From Chloroflexota bacterium (GTDB taxonomy: Bacteria > Chloroflexota > Dehalococcoidia > JACPEP01): a DNA stretch of 36,339 nucleotides. The notes under the pieces are model-generated. The model did no database searches and had not been told where the DNA came from. It was given only the letters and a program-made list of their open reading frames with translations. A program made the translations under genes and the position numbers. The DNA is taken from contig JACPEP010000044.1 of the NCBI GenBank assembly GCA_016183425.1, forward strand, positions 1 to 36,339, written 5' to 3'. This document shows positions 7,453-33,114 of this stretch, in pieces. Every line of letters begins with the position of its first letter. Within the stretch, counting starts at the first letter, position 1.

Positions 7453-8217
7453 TCAGCTCGAGACTAGTCGCCTTATCGCTTCGTTGACAGAACCGTAAAT
7501 CTCATTGAGATGAGCGGAGGTGTACATCTGGAGGGGGGCGATGGGGTGGTGTTGCCACTTCACGGCGAGCCCCAGGTTGAGCCGGATGCGGTCGATTGGC
7601 GCAAGCAGTTGGTTGATGTGACTTGCGGCAACGATCTGCCCCTTCTTCATGAGACGGAACCTGGTCAAGTCGAGTCCGATGCGGTGCTCAACAGAATTGA
7701 TCGCCTGCATGATTCGATTCAGGTCGTACTCTTGAACCAACTCACCGTTTGTGAACGCGGGAAGGAGATGCAGTTCGAGGGAGTCAACGTTCTTCAACAT
7801 TGTGGAAACTGTGCCTTCTGGAAGTAGTCTGGCGAGGACTTGGTCTAAGCCTTTGGCGTAGTCCGACCGGAAATCCGCGTACATCTTGTCCTTTAGGAAT
7901 AGCGGGGCTTCGCACTCTGCGATGAGAGCCGGGATGACGAATAACTGACGCTTCTCAAGCTCCATGGACAACGCGGCGTTGAGTTCCTTCTTGACCCACG
8001 GGGACTCGACGGAGTGAGGGGAGAGGACAACCATGAGGTAGCCGCTGCTCCGAATGCCATGCTCTATCTTGTCGTGCAGGGAGTCGCCGACTCTGAGTTC
8101 CCATTCGTCGTACCAAACTGGGATGCCCCTCCTTCTGAGATCATATGCTAGCCTGCCCACTTTCACGTGATCTTCAGATGAATGTGCCAGAAAGACCTGG
8201 GGTAACTCGGCGTTCAT
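7453..8217 (-). CDS. TIR-domain protein
   Basis: 254 aa. The N-terminal ~125 residues form a TIR_2-type domain: QVFLAHSSEDHVKVGRLAYDL, then GIPVWYDEWELRVGDSL, then LMVVLSPHSVESPWVKKEL. Glu78 of the SPWVKKEL motif is at the position of the catalytic glutamate of NAD-cleaving TIR enzymes. The remaining half (LKNVDSLELHLLPAF... SVNEAIRRLVSS) shows no domain I recognise; it has a leucine-rich helical C-terminus and may sense or oligomerise. Bacterial TIR proteins often act in antiphage defence by depleting NAD or making signalling nucleotides; here that is inferred. It is the only full gene between two attC-like sites, an apparent single-gene cassette. Confidence 0.85.
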   Translation of the reverse strand: MNAELPQVFLAHSSEDHVKVGRLAYDLRRRGIPVWYDEWELRVGDSLHDKIEHGIRSSGYLMVVLSPHSVESPWVKKELNAALSMELEKRQLFVIPALIAECEAPLFLKDKMYADFRSDYAKGLDQVLARLLPEGTVSTMLKNVDSLELHLLPAFTNGELVQEYDLNRIMQAINSVEHRIGLDLTRFRLMKKGQIVAASHINQLLAPIDRIRLNLGLAVKWQHHPIAPLQMYTSAHLNEIYGSVNEAIRRLVSS

Positions 8218-18849: not shown

Positions 18850-19563
18850 TTACCGTTCTATAGTCACTGTCCAATTGCCGTCGGCGGCTATATCAAAAGT
18901 GAACGTACCTGCACGTTTTATCCCAACTGCTTTGGCTCCGTCAAAGGAACCGATTACATTTACAAGTAGCTCGACACGTTGGCCATTGTCATCCAGCAGC
19001 CAAATGGCAAAATTGCGCCGACCGTCGTGCGTCATTCGAAATGTAGAAAGGCCTTGACCCAGGCTGAATCTCGGCGAAACCTGCTGGCCTTGTCCTGAAA
19101 AGGTGGTTGGCGCAACAACCTCGGCTGGGCCTCTCGGTTGTTCTATAACGGCTCGCCAGTTGCCGTCAGCAGAGATGTCTAAGACGTATGTGCCTGGGCG
19201 CTCTATTCCGATAGCTTTAGCCCCTTCGAACGGGCCGATTGTGTTTACCAGGAGTTCTATGCGTTCCCCATTGCCATCGAGCAACCAAATGGCAAAATTG
19301 CGCCGACCGTCGTGCGTCATTCGAAAGATGGCCAACCCTTTTGTGAGTTCGAACTTCGGTGGCACCTGTTGGCCACGCCCAGATAGGCTTTGAGGTGCTA
19401 CCGTGGGCACTGGCGAAGGCGTTTTTGTTGCCGTTGCCGTTGCCGTTGCCGTTGCCATAGGGGTCGCTGTTGGTGGTGGCGGTTGTTGCGTTTGTGTGCC
19501 ACATCCCACCAAAAGAATAGTAAGACTGACAAGGCTAAGAAGAACGTGTTTGAAAGCCAACAT
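18850..19563 (-). CDS. Lipoprotein with two tandem ~85-residue repeats
   Basis: 237 aa. A signal peptide with lipobox ends at Cys21 (ILLVGC), so the protein is exported and lipid-anchored. A Thr/Pro/Ala-rich linker follows, containing an (Ala-Thr) run encoded by a hexanucleotide microsatellite. Two repeats come next (about residues 57-143 and 150-237), each with FRMTHDGRRNFAIWLLD, ELLVN.IG and GAKA.GI, and ending DISADGNW or DIAADGNW. About 42 bp are identical between the repeats at DNA level (18999-19040 and 19287-19328), so the duplication is recent or kept homogeneous. Beta-rich, pre-peptidase/lectin-like appearance; the ligand is unknown. Confidence 0.8.
   Translation of the reverse strand: MLAFKHVLLSLVSLTILLVGCGTQTQQPPPPTATPMATATATATATKTPSPVPTVAPQSLSGRGQQVPPKFELTKGLAIFRMTHDGRRNFAIWLLDGNGERIELLVNTIGPFEGAKAIGIERPGTYVLDISADGNWRAVIEQPRGPAEVVAPTTFSGQGQQVSPRFSLGQGLSTFRMTHDGRRNFAIWLLDDNGQRVELLVNVIGSFDGAKAVGIKRAGTFTFDIAADGNWTVTIER
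19427..19456. repeat. Hexanucleotide microsatellite, (GTTGCC)5
   Basis: Five perfect GTTGCC units, encoding alternating Ala-Thr on the - strand in the lipoprotein linker. Six-base units change linker length without shifting the frame. Confidence 0.9.
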
Positions 19564-26117: not shown

Positions 26118-26729
26118 CTAAGAACGGTACAGCCCGTGCTCCCTGATATACTCCTCCACCGCCAGCGGCACCTGGTAGCGGATGGGATGGCCCTGGGCCA
26201 CCCGCTCCCGAAGGGAATCGGAGCTAATGCCCAGGAGGGGGATGGCCAGGGAGGTGAGGCGCCGGGAGAGGCCAGGTACGGCGTCCTCCAGAGGCTCCAG
26301 GTCAAAGCTCTCCCACCCCGGGCGGCGCACCACCACCAGATGGCACATCTCTATCAGGCGGGCCGGCTCTTTCCACAAGGGAAGCCCCAGGAGGGCGTCC
26401 ATGCCCAGGATGAAGTAGAAAGCGGCCTCCCCTTCCCACTGGCGTTGTAGGTCGGCAATAGTATCCACAGTATAGGTCGGCCCCGGCCGATCCACGTCCA
26501 CCGTGGACACCTCAAAGTAAGGGTTGGACACGATTCCCCGGCGCACCATCTCCAGACGGTGGGGGGCTGGGGTAACGCGCCGGTGGGCCTTGAGCCAGGG
26601 CTGCCCGGTGGGGACAAAGAGCACCTTCTCCAGGGAGAGCATGACCCGGGCCTCCTCCGCCACCACCAGGTGGGCCATGTGGATGGGGTCGAAGGTGCCC
26701 CCCAGCACCCCTATCTTTGTTTGTGCCAT
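26118..26729 (-). CDS. nadD: Nicotinate-nucleotide adenylyltransferase
   Basis: 203 aa. Adenylates nicotinate mononucleotide in NAD synthesis. GVLGGTFDPIHMAHLVVAEEA has the nucleotidyltransferase GGTFDP and HxxH (HMAH) motifs. VPTGQPWLK and ISSDSLRERVAQG (the SSTxIR equivalent) are conserved, and YFILGMDALLGL is the family's 'GaD' segment. Ends IREHGLYRS. Confidence 0.95.
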   Translation of the reverse strand: MAQTKIGVLGGTFDPIHMAHLVVAEEARVMLSLEKVLFVPTGQPWLKAHRRVTPAPHRLEMVRRGIVSNPYFEVSTVDVDRPGPTYTVDTIADLQRQWEGEAAFYFILGMDALLGLPLWKEPARLIEMCHLVVVRRPGWESFDLEPLEDAVPGLSRRLTSLAIPLLGISSDSLRERVAQGHPIRYQVPLAVEEYIREHGLYRS

Positions 26730-27116
26730 CTGTTCTCTTTCCCCTCATAGCGCCCGACGCCAAAGATCAATTTTTCAGGCCACTTTCTTCGATTACCCCT
26801 AATAAAGGTCACCCCCGATATTGCTTAAGCCCACCATTTGGCATCCCAGCCCTTTGGAGATGCTTCTCCGCCTTAGGCTGATCAGCATGACTTGCTTTTC
26901 TGTCACCCTGAGAGGCTGTGAATAAATTGGTTTTGGGCACCTGTCCAAGGGGTCAGCCAGATACGAAATCATGGCGTTCGAGGCGCTTCCCCACAAAAAA
27001 CTCACAGGCTCTGAGCGCAGCTGCTCCTGGTTCGACAGGCTCACCATGAGCGACAGCCGCTCACCCTGAGCTCGCGAAGGGCCTGATCCGCCCGGGGTGG
27101 GCGAAGGGTCTCCCCG
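26730..27116. other. Gene-free stretch rich in dispersed repeats
   Basis: Contains a copy of the 102-bp MITE-like element (26911-27012) and, next to the 688-aa gene, a stretch GGTTCGACAGGCTCACCATG then AGCGACAGCCGCTCACCCTG, a type of repeat common in environmental genomes. No gene is seen. Confidence 0.5.
26911..27012 (+). repeat. 102-bp MITE-like element, copy 1
   Basis: Starts AGAGGCTGTGA and ends TCACAGGCTCT, nearly complementary ends. The middle shares TTGGTTTTGGGCACCTGTCC and AAGGGGTCAGCCAGATAC with copies 2 and 3. All three copies are exactly 102 bp. Confidence 0.8.
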
Positions 27117-29183
27117 TCACGGATGGCTGCCCTGATTTCCATGCCTTGAACCAAAAATCCTGTATATCTGTTCAATAACTGAAGGCTGTCTTATCCCCAA
27201 AACGAGCTCCCTCAGTTTCTCAAGTGCCTCTCGCTCGGACTTATAAGACATAAGACCATGTTCAGCAATGTTACGCTGGCGTTGAATCTTGCCCAAAGGC
27301 TCCACGAGTACTTTTATCTCACCAAGATTCAGCTTGGGCCACCTCCGCCTGACAAAAGTCTTTACGTGTAGATTCTCTTTACCCTTCAGGCTAGGGTCGT
27401 TAACTGCTTCAAAAATACCGCACCACTTGCTGAGGGACACTCTCGACGCAAGAAAGTCAACTGGGCATGTCTCTTCTACTAGTTCTTTTTTCTGTCTATT
27501 GTAGTTCCAGAAACACAAAGACACTGATGGTAAACCGTCTTTTGTTAGGTAGTCGCCGAAGGGATAGATAAAATAACGGCGAAGACATGCCTCTACAGCG
27601 GCATGAAACCTCTTTATTACTTCTTTGGTTGATGTGCCTGTTCGCGAGCCAGACTGGTAAGCCCACTCGGCAGCTATCAAAGCATCAACGGCATCGGATG
27701 AAAGTTCGGGGCATATGCCGCTAAAGTAGCCTTCTAACGACTGAAGTATCTTGCCTTCTGATGGCAGCAATCGCTCGTCCTGGGACTGCTTCATTTCCTT
27801 CACTTCATGCAATATTTTCATCACGTTTATAGAAATGCGGCTGTCCATGTCCCCTACCGCCTGAATGTCCCATCGAGGGGTGCTTGGCTCTATCGTCTGC
27901 GGCGACGGCACCAGCGATTGCTCCTTCCCCAGCGATTCCAGTATCTTGTCGGCGAAGCCGATGCGCATGGCCCAGTACAGGTCCATGTGCGGCCCGATCT
28001 CATGCACGGCTGCCCCGCCCCACCTATCCGAATGGTGCCATATATGAATGTAAAACTCCCGCGCCCTTGACCAGTCCCGCTGTGGATCGTACTCCGAAAC
28101 CAGGGTAGCGGCCGTGGCTGCGCTTCTGTATTCCCCTTCAACTACAGCCAGATCCTCTTTCGCATACTCTGCATAGTCCTCCTTTAGAATACCGGTAAAA
28201 ACATCAAAAAATCGTTCGAGGCCTTTCCAGGGGTTTGCCCGAAACTTTTCCACCATTGCGTACCTACCTACCAACTGACCAAACTTCCAGGCTAGGTATT
28301 GGGCAGACTCCTTGTTATATTCTGACGGCAGAGCATCTGAGCAATCCCACTGTCTACAGAAACCTAAAATATCACTGGCCGCCAGGAATAGACTAATCCA
28401 GTCGTAGAACCTATAGTCTATTTCATATTTTTCTTCGTCGGAGCAGGTCTCCTTCTTCTCGCAGGCTTCGGCCCATGAATCCAGAAGCTTGCAGGCAAAC
28501 TCGGCCAGGGGACCAATATAAACACTGCTTCGCCCTGCCGATTTTATCGCATAGAGTGTCTCAATATAATAATTCGCATTACTTTGAGACACAACATAAG
28601 GCATTGAAATGGCGGTAATGCACTTTCCTAGGACTATATCTGCCGTGTTGGTCAAGACTCCCACTCCCGAATCCTGAGGAAACGACGTTGTACCTCCAGG
28701 ACCGTACTCCACCGAAAGCCTGGTGGCCGCCATGGCGTGCCAGAGCTGCATAGCCCGTTCCAGGTCGCCCTTCGTCAAGCATACCCACCCCAGGGCGAAG
28801 CGAGTGTGAAAGAGAACCCGCGCCTCTTCATCCGTCAAGGGCCCCCGCTCAGCCCTCTCTGTGAGAGAGGCGAGCAGGGCTTCGCAAGGCTCCAGAAATG
28901 CCGCTGCTATACTGGATAGAGGTGATTGTTTGAGCTCAATTTCCTCTGGCTTCCAGGAGAAACGCAAAAAGGAAAGAAAACGAAAATATATAGCTATGGA
29001 AACCAGGGCCTGCCAGCAAAGCTCGCCCTGCTTAACGAGGTCTATTGCCCCCATCAGGCCCTCCAGGCTTGAGTAACGCTCCGCCTCTTCGTCACTCATG
29101 AAGAGTGCCAGGTAACTCATTAAGAGTGCCAGCCATGCATCCGGCTCTGAAGGCTTCAGTTCCTCTTCGTCTTTTTCACCCAT
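27117..29183 (-). CDS. Large unknown protein with C-terminal RNxxxH motif
   Basis: 688 aa, soluble, no signal peptide. I do not recognise the family. The first ~450 residues are helical with TPR-like character (AFLEPCEALLASL, LFHTRFALGWVCLTKGDLERAMQLWHAM). The C-terminal part (from about residue 500) has ALIAAEWAYQSGSRTGTSTKEVIKRFHAAVEACLRRYF, and near the end QRQRNIAEHGLM; R637-H642 (RNIAEH) fits the HEPN R-N-x3-H motif, and the preceding helices resemble an Apea-like HEPN fold. A HEPN nuclease with a TPR-like sensor is a reasonable guess; not shown. Its own codon use looks more mixed than neighbouring housekeeping genes. Repeats flank its 3' side. Confidence 0.6.
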   Translation of the reverse strand: MGEKDEEELKPSEPDAWLALLMSYLALFMSDEEAERYSSLEGLMGAIDLVKQGELCWQALVSIAIYFRFLSFLRFSWKPEEIELKQSPLSSIAAAFLEPCEALLASLTERAERGPLTDEEARVLFHTRFALGWVCLTKGDLERAMQLWHAMAATRLSVEYGPGGTTSFPQDSGVGVLTNTADIVLGKCITAISMPYVVSQSNANYYIETLYAIKSAGRSSVYIGPLAEFACKLLDSWAEACEKKETCSDEEKYEIDYRFYDWISLFLAASDILGFCRQWDCSDALPSEYNKESAQYLAWKFGQLVGRYAMVEKFRANPWKGLERFFDVFTGILKEDYAEYAKEDLAVVEGEYRSAATAATLVSEYDPQRDWSRAREFYIHIWHHSDRWGGAAVHEIGPHMDLYWAMRIGFADKILESLGKEQSLVPSPQTIEPSTPRWDIQAVGDMDSRISINVMKILHEVKEMKQSQDERLLPSEGKILQSLEGYFSGICPELSSDAVDALIAAEWAYQSGSRTGTSTKEVIKRFHAAVEACLRRYFIYPFGDYLTKDGLPSVSLCFWNYNRQKKELVEETCPVDFLASRVSLSKWCGIFEAVNDPSLKGKENLHVKTFVRRRWPKLNLGEIKVLVEPLGKIQRQRNIAEHGLMSYKSEREALEKLRELVLGIRQPSVIEQIYRIFGSRHGNQGSHP

Positions 29184-29296: not shown

Positions 29297-30949
29297 CTAA
29301 AACACCAGGGACTCCTTCTGCTCACCAAAGACGCCCCGCAGGGCGTCGCACATCTCCCCCAGGGTGGCATAGGCCTCGACGCAGCGGATGAAGTGGGGCA
29401 TGGTGTTCTCCTGCCCCCGCGCCGCCGCCTCCAGCTCCGCCAGGGCAGCCGTCACCTGAGCGCCGTCCCGGCTGGCCTTGACCTCCGCCAGGCGCTGCCT
29501 CTGCCGCCTCTCCTCCTGGGGGTCGATGCGCAGCAATCCCCCGATCTCCGGCTGCGGCCCCGGGAAGCGATTGACCCCCACCACCACCTGCTGCCCTGCC
29601 TCCACCTCCCGTAGGTGGCGATAGGCGCTATCCTGTATCTCCCGCTGGGGGAACCCCCTTTCGATGGCCACCAGAGCGCCCCCCATGGCATCAATGCGGT
29701 CCAGGTACTGGCGCGCCCTCTCCTCCATGGCGTCGGTGAGCGCCTCCACAAAGTAAGAGCCTCCCAGGGGGTCCACGGTGTCCGCCACGCCGCTCTCGTG
29801 GGCCAGGACCTGCTGGGTGCGCAAGGAGAGGATAACCGACTCCTCGCTGGGGAGGGCCAAGGCCTCGTCCCAGGAGCAGGAGTGCAGGGACTGGGTGCCG
29901 CCCAGGATGGCGGCCAGGGTCTGGATGGTGACCCGGACGATGTTGTTGTGGGGCTGCTGGGCGGTGAGGGTGGAGCCCAGGGTCTGGACATGGAAGCGGA
30001 GCATCCAGGAGCGGGGGTCCTTGGCCTGGAAGCGATGGCGCATTATTCTGGCCCACAAGCGCCGGGCGGCCCGAAACTTGGCCACCTCCTCGAAGAGGTT
30101 GTTATGGCTGCCGAAGAAGAAGGAGAGGCGCCCGGCAAAGGCATCCACGTCCTGTCCCGTCTCCACCGCCGCCTGGACATAGGCGATGCCATCGGCCAGG
30201 GTGAAAGCCAGCTCCTGGGCGGCGGTGGCTCCCGCCTCCCGAATGTGATAGCCGCTGATGCTGATGGTGTTCCACGGGGGGACTTCCTGGCTGCAAAAGC
30301 TGAAGATGTCGGTAGTGAGGCGCAGGGAGGGGCGGGGGGGAAAGATGTATGTGCCGCGAGCGACATATTCCTTGAGAATATCGTTCTGGATGGTGCCGTT
30401 GAGGTGGGAGAGGGGGACACCCTGCCTTTTGGCCAGGGCGATGTACATGGCAAGAAGGATGGGGGCGGTGGCGTTGATGGTCATGGAGGTGCTTACCCGC
30501 TCCAGGGGAATATCCTGGAACATTACCTCCATGTCCCGGAGGGTGCATACAGGCACCCCCGTCTTGCCCACCTCACCGGCGGCCAGGGGGTGATCCGAGT
30601 CGTAGCCCATCTGAGTGGGCAAGTCGAAGGCGATGCTCAGCCCCGTCTGGCCCTGCTCCAGGAGGTATCGGAAGCGTCGGTTGGTCTCCTCCGCGGAGGC
30701 GAACCCGGAATACTGGCGCATAGTCCACAGCCGGCCTCGGTACATGGTGGGCTGCACCCCCCTAGTGAAGGGGTACTCCCCAGAGTAGCCCAGGGCCTCG
30801 GAATACTGGAAGCCGGGGTCATCCTCCGGGGTGTAGAGGGTGTCTATGGGGATGCCGGAGTTGGTCTCAAACTGTCGTTCCGGAAAGCGCTTCAGGACCG
30901 GGGCCAGGGTCTTATCCCGCCACTCTTCTTTGTCTTTGCTGGTCGTCAT
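29297..30949 (-). CDS. mcmA: Methylmalonyl-CoA mutase, large (catalytic) subunit
   Basis: 550 aa, AGGAGG before ATG. Interconverts methylmalonyl-CoA and succinyl-CoA with adenosylcobalamin. [56 protein letters not shown] and [13 protein letters not shown] are family signatures. Tyr80, Thr186, Gln188, Arg198 and His235 fall at the spacing of P. shermanii MutB Tyr89, Thr195, Gln197, Arg207 and His244; Tyr and Arg distinguish it from isobutyryl-CoA mutase (Phe, Gln). The B12-binding domain is absent, as in two-part mutases, and the partner subunit is not in the window. The next gene upstream is a B12-binding radical SAM protein, with no evidence of a shared pathway beyond the cofactor. Confidence 0.93.
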
Positions 30950-31238: not shown

Positions 31239-32612
31239 TCACCCGCGACCCCAAGTCTCTAGCGTCGAAGGCTCGACTCCAGGGGGGCTGCCTTTTCCTT
31301 GCCCCTCCTCATTCATAGCCTTCACGAACTCCTCCAGGTACTCCCTATCCAGACCGTGGGGGACAAAAACGGGGTGCATGAGGCTCATCTGCCGCCAGTC
31401 ATCCTGGAAGGACCCGTACTGATGGGCAACTGGATAAATCTCCGTGTTGGGCAAGGGAGTGAAGTGGGAGAAAGAAAAGAAGTCGAAGGGCAAGCGGTGG
31501 ATGAAGTCTACGGTGCGGGCCAGGGTGTCTTTGGTCTCCAGGGGGCAGCCAGCTATGAACAGGCCTTTTATGGACATGCCGGCCTCCTTGGTCATCCGGA
31601 CCCCCCGCTCCATATCCTCTACGCTCATGTGCCGCTTCATGAAGTCCAGGATCTCCTGGCAACCGCTTTCCATGCCGTATGTTATCTGCCAGCAGCCGGC
31701 CTCCCGCATCCAGCGCAGCACCTCCGGGGTGGCGGCGTCGGCCCGCCCCCAGGTGGACCATACCAGGTCTAGCTTTTCCTCCTTCAGGAGGTCGCAGACC
31801 TCCCGAAGCCACTTCTTGTTGACCATGAAGTGGTCGTCCCGGATGTTTATATCTTTGATGCCGTAGGTTTGGTGGAGGTGCTTCATGTGGCTCACCACGT
31901 ACTGGGGGCTGAAGCCCCTCCATTTGCGCCCCCACATGGCCCGGTCGCAGTAGATGCACTGGAAGGGACAGCCCCGGGAGGTGCTCATGGAGGTGGCCGG
32001 GAGACGGCTGTAGTTATGGGGGGAAGGGGTGTAGCTCTCCGCTACCGAGGGCAGCAGGTCCCAGGCCGGGAGGGGCAGTTCCTCCAAGTGAGAGATATAG
32101 GGCCGCCGCGGCGTGAGGAAGGCTCGCCCGTCCCGGCGCAGCACCAAGCCCGGTATGCGAGCCAGGTCTTCCACCGACGCCCGACGGTCAAGAGCCTCCA
32201 GGAGCTCCATCAGGGTCCGCTCTCCCTCTCCATAAACGCCCATGTCGATCTGGGGAAAGAGCTCCATGGTTTCCCGGGGAAGGGCGGTAATGTGGGGCCC
32301 ACCCAGCAGGACGGTCACCTGGGGCACTTGCACTTTAACCTGAAGGGCGATGTCCGCCACTCGGTGGATGTTCATGGTCACGCTGTAAAAGCCCAAGTAC
32401 CGAGGTGAAGCCTGGAGGATGCGCTCCACCGTCTCCTTGATGGTCAGCCCCAGGGCCACCGCATCCAGGATGGCGATGCGGTAACCCCTTTGTCGCGCTA
32501 CTGCTGCCAGATGGAGGGGGCCCATGGGCGGAAAGGCATGTCTTACCGCTTTTCGTCTCTCCGTCAGCCTCTCTTCCAGGGTAACTGGTGGGCTGACAAG
32601 AAGGATGTCCAT
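31239..32612 (-). CDS. B12-binding domain radical SAM protein
   Basis: About 457 aa. I chose the ATG at 32612 (GGAG 9 bp upstream) over the TTG at 32618. The N-terminal ~150 residues are a cobalamin-binding Rossmann-like domain (ILLVSPPVTLEERL, PPMGPLHLAAVARQRGYRIAILDA, VTVLLGGPHITALPRE). Cys217, Cys221 and Cys224 (RGCPFQCIYCDR, counted from the TTG) are the radical SAM CxxxCxxC ligands of the [4Fe-4S] cluster, and GMESGCQEILDFMKR is the SAM-contact/Elp3-like strand. Such proteins methylate or rearrange unreactive carbons, for example in cofactors, antibiotics or hopanoids. The substrate is unknown; no biosynthetic neighbour gives a clue. Confidence 0.88.
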   Translation of the reverse strand: MDILLVSPPVTLEERLTERRKAVRHAFPPMGPLHLAAVARQRGYRIAILDAVALGLTIKETVERILQASPRYLGFYSVTMNIHRVADIALQVKVQVPQVTVLLGGPHITALPRETMELFPQIDMGVYGEGERTLMELLEALDRRASVEDLARIPGLVLRRDGRAFLTPRRPYISHLEELPLPAWDLLPSVAESYTPSPHNYSRLPATSMSTSRGCPFQCIYCDRAMWGRKWRGFSPQYVVSHMKHLHQTYGIKDINIRDDHFMVNKKWLREVCDLLKEEKLDLVWSTWGRADAATPEVLRWMREAGCWQITYGMESGCQEILDFMKRHMSVEDMERGVRMTKEAGMSIKGLFIAGCPLETKDTLARTVDFIHRLPFDFFSFSHFTPLPNTEIYPVAHQYGSFQDDWRQMSLMHPVFVPHGLDREYLEEFVKAMNEEGQGKGSPPGVEPSTLETWGRG

Positions 32613-33114
32613 CCTCAATCTCCTTCCCCAAATGTCTTGCTGGAGCCGAGCCTTCGTTGAAACTGATGAGATTCTTCGTCGTCCCCGCTAGAGGCGGGAG
32701 GCTCCTCAGAATCATCATGTGCCTTTGGCGCACCACGAAGGATGAAAATGCCTCTCTGCCCTTATCCCCTTAGTCCCCTTCTCCCCCGGGGAGAAGGGGA
32801 GATGGATGATATTTGGGGGACACCCATTCGGCAAGCTCAGGGCAGGCTCCCAAACCCCCGTCGGGGGGCTTTGCCCCCTGGACCCCCAGAGGGGATGTCG
32901 CAGCATCCCCTCTGGGCAGTCGCCGCAGCGGTATTTTCATAGCAATGACATTGCTAAACAGTCTCCATATCCTCTTCCCTAGATTAGCACAACCCTGGTA
33001 TACTACGCCAGATGCAGGGGGTGACGAAGTGGAAGAATGAGCGCTGCGGCATGGTTTGTGACATTTCGGGCTTAATACCGGGGACCCGGGGCCGCATGGA
33101 GTGAGGAGACAAAT
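32613..33114. other. Gene-free stretch with purine-rich palindromes
   Basis: TCCCCTTCTCCC (32774-32785) and GGGAGAAGGGGA (32789-32800) form a strong hairpin. A second palindromic run (CAGAGGGGATG / CATCCCCTCTG) lies at 32886-32917. The rest holds no recognisable gene. The two flanking genes diverge, so promoters should lie here, but none is convincing. Confidence 0.5.

Follow-up and report, generated by a model that had tools for sequence, protein, structure and literature searches.

A stand-alone Chloroflexota gene joining a helical body to a predicted HEPN RNase domain, a candidate single-gene sensor–effector

The stretch of DNA analysed here, referred to as the window, is 36,339 nucleotides long and comes from a Chloroflexota bacterium of the class Dehalococcoidia. 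On its minus strand, positions 27117–29183 are filled by one open reading frame of 688 codons, a stand-alone gene whose product consists of a helical body and a C-terminal HEPN domain; the plus strand of the same interval is full of stops. A sequence-only reading made earlier had given the position and length of this frame exactly, with no strand assigned, and its numbering of Arg637 and His642 agrees with the translation. Because relatives in other genomes match most of the length of the protein (E values of 3.4e-60, 4.4e-52, and 2.8e-41), the frame is a real gene, and a chance ORF was ruled out. The same reading had recognised no family, and none emerged from our searches, in which the 688-aa protein matched 0 families in Pfam at E values up to 10, 0 models in PADLOC-DB 2.0, 0 in NCBIfam, and 0 in PHROGs.

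The gene is flanked upstream, across a 113-bp gap and on the same strand, by a methylmalonyl-CoA mutase gene (29297–30949, minus strand), and downstream by a gene for a cytidylyltransferase-like protein (26118–26729, minus strand), both assigned by Pfam scan. Its GC content is the lowest of the 19 ORFs listed for the window (50.7%, with the others at 52.8%–65.9%), compared with 59.2% for the rest of the window. Located 66 bases past the 3′ end of the gene is a copy of a dispersed genome repeat, TTCGACAGGCTCACCATGAG (27031–27050, plus strand), which is overlapped by a short tandem at 27033–27071. This repeat occurs at 20 further places in the genome, giving 21 copies with at most two mismatches, and the reversed control has none; it looks like a REP-type element. 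The proposal that mobile-type repeats lie on one side of the gene therefore holds as far as the tandem and the dispersed repeat are concerned, but a Pfam scan of ten neighbouring ORFs detected no transposase or integrase. A scan for promoters and terminators near the gene returned sites no more numerous than in shuffled sequences, and no Rfam family was found in the window.

Other features of the window were recorded alongside. Positions 7453–8217 (minus strand) encode a 254-aa protein in which a TIR domain at the N-terminus (PF13676, E = 3.9e-30) is the only family recognised; with 54.6% GC among neighbours that are mostly above 60%, this is another single gene of immunity type in the window. 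The B12-binding radical SAM protein encoded at 31239–32618 (minus strand) matches the PADLOC candidate PDC-M51A (E = 5.4e-17), a match that probably reflects only the shared radical SAM domain. A perfect (GTTGCC)x5 hexamer array is present at 19427–19456, near the argininosuccinate lyase gene.

The C-terminal domain (residues 476–688; 27117–27758, minus strand) was delimited by conservation, a domain model, and a fold match. HEPN RNase sites are defined by an Rx4-6H motif (Anantharaman et al. 2013, PMC3710099), and the window protein carries Arg637-Asn-Ile-Ala-Glu-His642, a predicted RNase motif of the Rx4H form (27258–27275, minus strand), at the end of helix 3. The preceding long helix, residues 519–548, contains the invariant acidic residue Glu531 (27591–27593, minus strand). 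The protein thus shows three features of the HEPN superfamily, namely the Rx4-6H motif, its location at the end of helix 3, and a conserved acidic residue in helix 2. Alignment of the six family members that carry this domain showed Glu531 and His642 in all six and Arg637 in five; the former two account for two of the seven invariant C-terminal columns, and all three are among the 14 of 213 C-terminal positions of the window protein at which at least five of the six members share a residue. Five members read as Rx4H (RNIAEH, RGGSAH, RGGAAH, RGSSAH, and RGGAAH). The exception is the copy in genome G496, which has Asp in the Arg637 column and is readable only as Rx6H. A polar residue (Asn, Asp or His) after the Arg, another HEPN feature, is provided by Asn638 in the window protein, but it is not a family-wide feature because the relatives have Gly (four) or Ser (one). 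The Ex3[KR] form of the helix-2 acidic motif is found in two of the six members, and the residue three positions before Glu531 is basic in five of the six and Ala in the window copy. The C-terminal parts of the relatives are only 17%–30% identical to that of the window protein, and the catalytic motif is still kept.

A structure prediction of the domain alone (219 residues; pLDDT 84.9, pTM 0.84) placed the two active-site helices on either side of a long β-hairpin, with model helix 151–172 (residues 620–641) ending directly before His642. When the Foldseek candidates were re-aligned by VIA, in which helical bundles may score up to about Z = 13 through generic similarity, the top six rows were RnlA entries (Z = 9.2–10.7), with RnlA 6y2q fitting the model at Z = 10.7 and 3.2 Å over 139 residues. 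Next came a Sulfolobus protein (Z = 8.5), a pair of Roquin ROQ structures (Z = 7.9), which contain HEPN parts, and then HepT and HEPN-MNT toxins; Csm6 (6tug, Z = 7.1) and the AbiA HEPN domain stood further down, and the first clearly non-HEPN row was a designed protein at Z = 7.3. By title or known identity, about 20 of the 50 rows are HEPN proteins. Foldseek alone gave no match to the PDB at E ≤ 0.001 for the HEPN model, and a PDB sequence-profile search with the HEPN part yielded only ferritin and other weak, unrelated rows. Because Foldseek returned nothing at E ≤ 0.001 and the Z scores are within the generic range, the case for HEPN rests jointly on the motif, its position, and the fold.

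Taken together, the conserved Glu531, Arg637, and His642, the motif at the end of helix 3, and the fold shared with RnlA and other HEPN proteins leave us highly confident that the C-terminus has a HEPN fold, as the sequence-only reading had suggested, and RNase activity of this domain is predicted as likely. That reading had named AlphaFold and Foldseek as a check; the predicted C-terminus is HEPN-like by VIA, but Foldseek taken by itself gave nothing at E ≤ 0.001. Its further assignment of the domain as Apea-like was not sustained, as the Apea HEPN model PF18739 matched neither the protein (hmmscan, E up to 10) nor anything else in its genome, and was present in 4 of 119 genomes of the class. 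In hhalign comparisons, the probability was 0.2 against Apea, represented by only four sequences, and 0.2 against DUF4209, represented by only two sequences; two HEPN families, Apea and DUF4209, reach just 0.4 against each other, so these comparisons have too little power to speak for or against either family.

The N-terminal body (residues 1–475; 27759–29183, minus strand), defined by searches and modelling and proposed to act as sensor and restraint, is common to a relative that lacks the HEPN domain. It is predicted with modest confidence to be composed entirely of helical hairpins (whole-protein pLDDT 64). The closest solved folds are 14-3-3 (Z = 10.6 over 170 residues) and SNAP/LGN-type repeats (Z = 8–9), which are largely peptide-binding or scaffold folds, at Z scores within the generic range for helical proteins; Foldseek with the full-length model found nothing at E ≤ 0.001. 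The body had earlier been called TPR-like. Helical hairpins are indeed predicted throughout, but no 34-residue TPR motif was detected in the protein with Pfam at E values up to 10, and ‘TPR-like’ would serve here as a loose description of the modelled body. Two motifs stand out in the seven-member alignment, QYLAWKFGQLVGR (residues 295–307; 28263–28301, minus strand), in which Gln295, Ala298, Trp299, Gly302, and Arg307 are invariant in all seven sequences, and GPHMDLYWAMRIGFAD (residues 397–412; 27948–27995, minus strand), in which Asp401, Leu402, Trp404, Gly409, and Phe410 are likewise invariant. Both motifs are candidates for a recognition or restraint surface.

The family comprises seven members in all, the window protein and one in each of six other genomes, all from Chloroflexota: G007 (Chloroflexi FW602_bin.16), G047 (Dehalococcoidia AUK178), G496 (Dehalococcoidales STB_68), G690, and L012 and L013 (both uncultured Dehalococcoidia). 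Six members are of the HEPN type, and the seventh, in G007, is of the MIT_C type. Their bodies are 20%–33% identical to that of the window protein over the aligned columns of the seven-member alignment. Matches were found in 3 of 197 genomes around the window’s own, with the window included, in 2 of 84 genomes of one order, in 5 of the 393 class genomes searched with a body profile, and in 3 of 400 genomes of the phylum. For the last figure, two of five matches (G123 and G218) were excluded as not being body relatives because they match only profile columns 495–637, which are the MIT_C part contributed by G007. When genome contigs were scanned, the single protein as query gave no relative among 12 pattern hits, and a four-member alignment gave five relatives among 43 pattern hits, three of them already found and two new (L012 and L013). 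The gene family is rare and patchy. The genome searches were centred on Chloroflexota, and members outside this phylum may be missed because the search patterns were derived from close relatives.

At each of the seven loci, the AT content of the gene exceeds that of its flanks, with differences between 0.8 and 11.1 points. We found no homologue of the protein by tblastn in 72,556 plasmid and 50,697 phage records, no match of the L013 relative in the plasmid records, and no relative among 20 pattern hits when viral contigs were scanned with the seven-member alignment; a plasmid or phage gene was accordingly rejected as an identity for it. The G047 copy (L005, 115–2026) has a frame break near codon 67, by a run of seven T, and an in-frame TAG, and is therefore either decayed or affected by an assembly error.

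The MIT_C-type member differs from the others at its effector end. The G007 protein is 37% identical to the window protein over body residues 42–475 and does not match it beyond; it has no HEPN domain, and its last ~140 residues are instead MIT_C (PF16565, ‘phospholipase D-like’, E = 7.2e-51). This C-terminus matches positions 518–694 of the 698 in the PADLOC BrxL model (E = 1.9e-48). A Thioflavicoccus plasmid encodes a BrxL whose C-terminus shares 59.3% identity with it across 175 residues; there, brxL adjoins a PglZ gene in a BREX-type locus. In Hymenobacter, the MIT_C stretch has a reading frame of its own, which follows pieces of BrxL and PglZ. Matches to the G007 C-terminus occur in 24 plasmid records, and an annotated brxL lies beneath 14 of the 20 among the matches listed. 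A PDB sequence-profile search with the whole alignment reached MITD1, through its MIT_C row. In BrxL, Lon has been reported to be replaced by an ‘HKD-endoDNase’ in 1,030 of 2,913 proteins (PMC12839542), and PF16565 is named among BREX components (PMC12715929). Since both are placed at the BrxL C-terminus, we infer that the HKD domain of the former and the PF16565 of the latter are the same domain. The presence of either of two defence-associated effectors on one body is the strongest pointer to function here.

Gene neighbourhoods provided a less uniform picture. In G047, type III Mod and Res genes lie directly upstream on the same strand, with a 79-bp gap; in L013, a PIN-domain gene and a small ORF are directly upstream, with a UvrD-type helicase gene further up; and in G007, nucleotidyltransferase and DUF3800 genes flank the relative on the opposite strand. 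No recognisable defence gene adjoins the relatives in G496, G690, and L012 or the window gene. The context is therefore suggestive of defence in one to three of the seven loci and absent in four; in most relatives the neighbours are metabolic or unrelated, and there is no conserved partner across the seven. The enrichment in defence islands that had been put forward as a check was not shown by these loci. In G690, a gene upstream of the relative and on the other strand (L020, 3–443) encodes a DCD-like domain (PF10539, Development and cell death; E = 1e-19), a domain best known from plants.

These neighbourhoods bear on three other explanations. The G047 arrangement would suit a second line of restriction–modification in the manner of PrrC, with the body monitoring a host R-M enzyme and freeing the RNase when that enzyme is inhibited, and linkage between HEPN genes and R-M systems is common (PMC3710099, section 10). 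However, this linkage is seen in only one of the seven loci, in the very copy with the frame break and internal TAG, and no R-M gene was found among the scanned neighbours of the window gene; we consider this the least probable of the explanations weighed here. Only slightly less improbable is that the HEPN domain binds RNA or protein without being catalytic and that the protein serves as an adaptor, for example one regulating the neighbouring methylmalonyl-CoA mutase operon, given that the gene follows the mutase by 113 bp on the same strand and that HEPN domains devoid of RNase activity exist (PMC3710099). This idea conflicts with the retention of the catalytic motif across such divergent C-terminal parts, with a GC content sharply unlike that of the mutase (50.7% vs 65.1%), and with the other six loci, in which no mutase was seen beside the gene (translated ORFs inspected by eye, and part of them scanned).

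A third explanation, unlikely but with a better claim than these two, is that the protein is a HEPN RNase for internal stress or growth control, with the body sensing a host signal such as starvation, redox, or translation stress. The window gene lies outside any defence island and its nearest neighbours are metabolic, and HEPN domains also serve in stress responses and RNA processing (PMC3710099). Yet the distribution is patchy, with 5 of 393 genomes rather than conservation across the class, the body exchanges its effector for a BrxL-type domain, and one of the copies adjoins type III R-M genes.

Weighing these data, we favour a single-gene, self-contained defence-type sensor–effector in which the body restrains and triggers a C-terminal RNase, leading to abortive infection, and assign this reading a probability of roughly two in three. 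An antiviral protein that combines sensor and effector in itself would be expected to look like this, with a helical body followed by a HEPN domain or, at the same position, by a BrxL-type domain. The resemblance to defence proteins noted in the sequence-only reading is upheld indirectly, through the effector swap and the one type III R-M operon. Counting against the defence reading are the lack of a conserved neighbour, the lack of homologues in the phage, plasmid, and viral searches, and a membership of only seven, of which one, in G047, is broken. The generic range of the Z scores, the missing Foldseek match at E ≤ 0.001 for the HEPN model, the Asp of G496 in the Arg637 column, and the Ala of the window copy three positions before Glu531 also weigh on that side.

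Based on these findings, we propose a plausible mechanism for the defence-type protein. The body would hold the HEPN (or MIT_C) domain silent until it detects a signal that stems from an invader or from stress; the site of recognition may be a pocket or surface formed by the motifs at 295–307 and 397–412. Once activated, the HEPN domains would dimerise and cleave RNA of the host (or of the phage) in a metal-independent manner, and this RNA cutting would stop growth, thereby conferring a putative benefit against phage by abortive infection. A separate antitoxin or partner would not be needed, because the body is proposed to play that part. Whether the body constitutes a new, unnamed single-gene immune sensor of Chloroflexota, partner-free, with two body motifs reading the invader’s signal and with exchangeable C-terminal effectors, either HEPN as a predicted RNA cutter or the MIT_C/HKD-type domain of BrxL, is a more specific claim, for which we see the odds as even. 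If this is true, a bacterial class that is difficult to culture, and whose immunity has been little sampled, gains a one-gene, partner-free type of defence, and the BrxL-type MIT_C/HKD domain also serves as an exchangeable effector in a protein that is not part of BREX. With an RNase-type effector in one case and a nuclease-like one in the other, the body also provides a natural experiment, in which it could be tested as a trigger independently of the domain that it releases.

Among known systems, the closest solved fold to the C-terminal domain is that of RnlA, the HEPN toxin of the anti-phage RNase LS of E. coli. In five of the six RnlA rows the VIA-aligned ranges end with the same offset (150), and Arg637 would fall at RnlA Arg318, the residue mutated in 6y2s, if the last 39 residues are gap-free, a correspondence obtained by arithmetic and not by residue alignment; a search of the literature for RnlA residue names found none. 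RnlA has an antitoxin partner, RnlB. No such partner was seen beside the window gene, in an inspection made without an RnlB model. No sequence similarity between RnlA and the window protein was detected, and the N-terminal body of the latter is longer and matches no family.

The TPR-HEPN fusions of the LA2681 type (PF18733) and the C6orf70/DUF4209 type (PF13910) likewise combine a helical repeat-like body and a HEPN domain in one chain, and the C6orf70-type HEPN occurs in R-M-related operons (PMC3710099, Table 1). Neither Pfam model matches the window protein or occurs in the window genome, although the PF18733 search matched no genome, controls included. A DUF4209 (PF13910) protein was observed in genome G024 (L045, 1–2265), with a frame that runs on into a nucleotidyltransferase-like C-terminus (GSHARGEAGPDSDVDLL, identified by eye). 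As for BREX, the C-terminal HKD/MIT_C domain of BrxL sits at the place of HEPN in the G007 relative, whereas the window protein has neither a BrxL match nor MIT_C, and the body was unrelated to BrxL in every search.

Proteins that join a sensor to HEPN, also with TPR bodies, are already known (PMC3710099, Table 1). In the open-licence literature on HEPN/TPR anti-phage proteins, on PF16565/MIT_C, and on HEPN in Dehalococcoidia and Chloroflexi, we recognised no description of the 688-aa family, and the exchange of HEPN and BrxL-type domains on one body is, as far as could be checked in that literature, undescribed. The CARF-effector proteins Csm6/Csx1 and the CBS-HEPN protein DS-11 likewise consist of a sensor domain and HEPN, although neither a CARF nor a CBS domain was found in the window protein with Pfam and PADLOC. 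Effector exchange is known for CARF proteins (PMC3710099), and DS-11, a HEPN defence system consisting of one protein, has been tested (PMC13092281).
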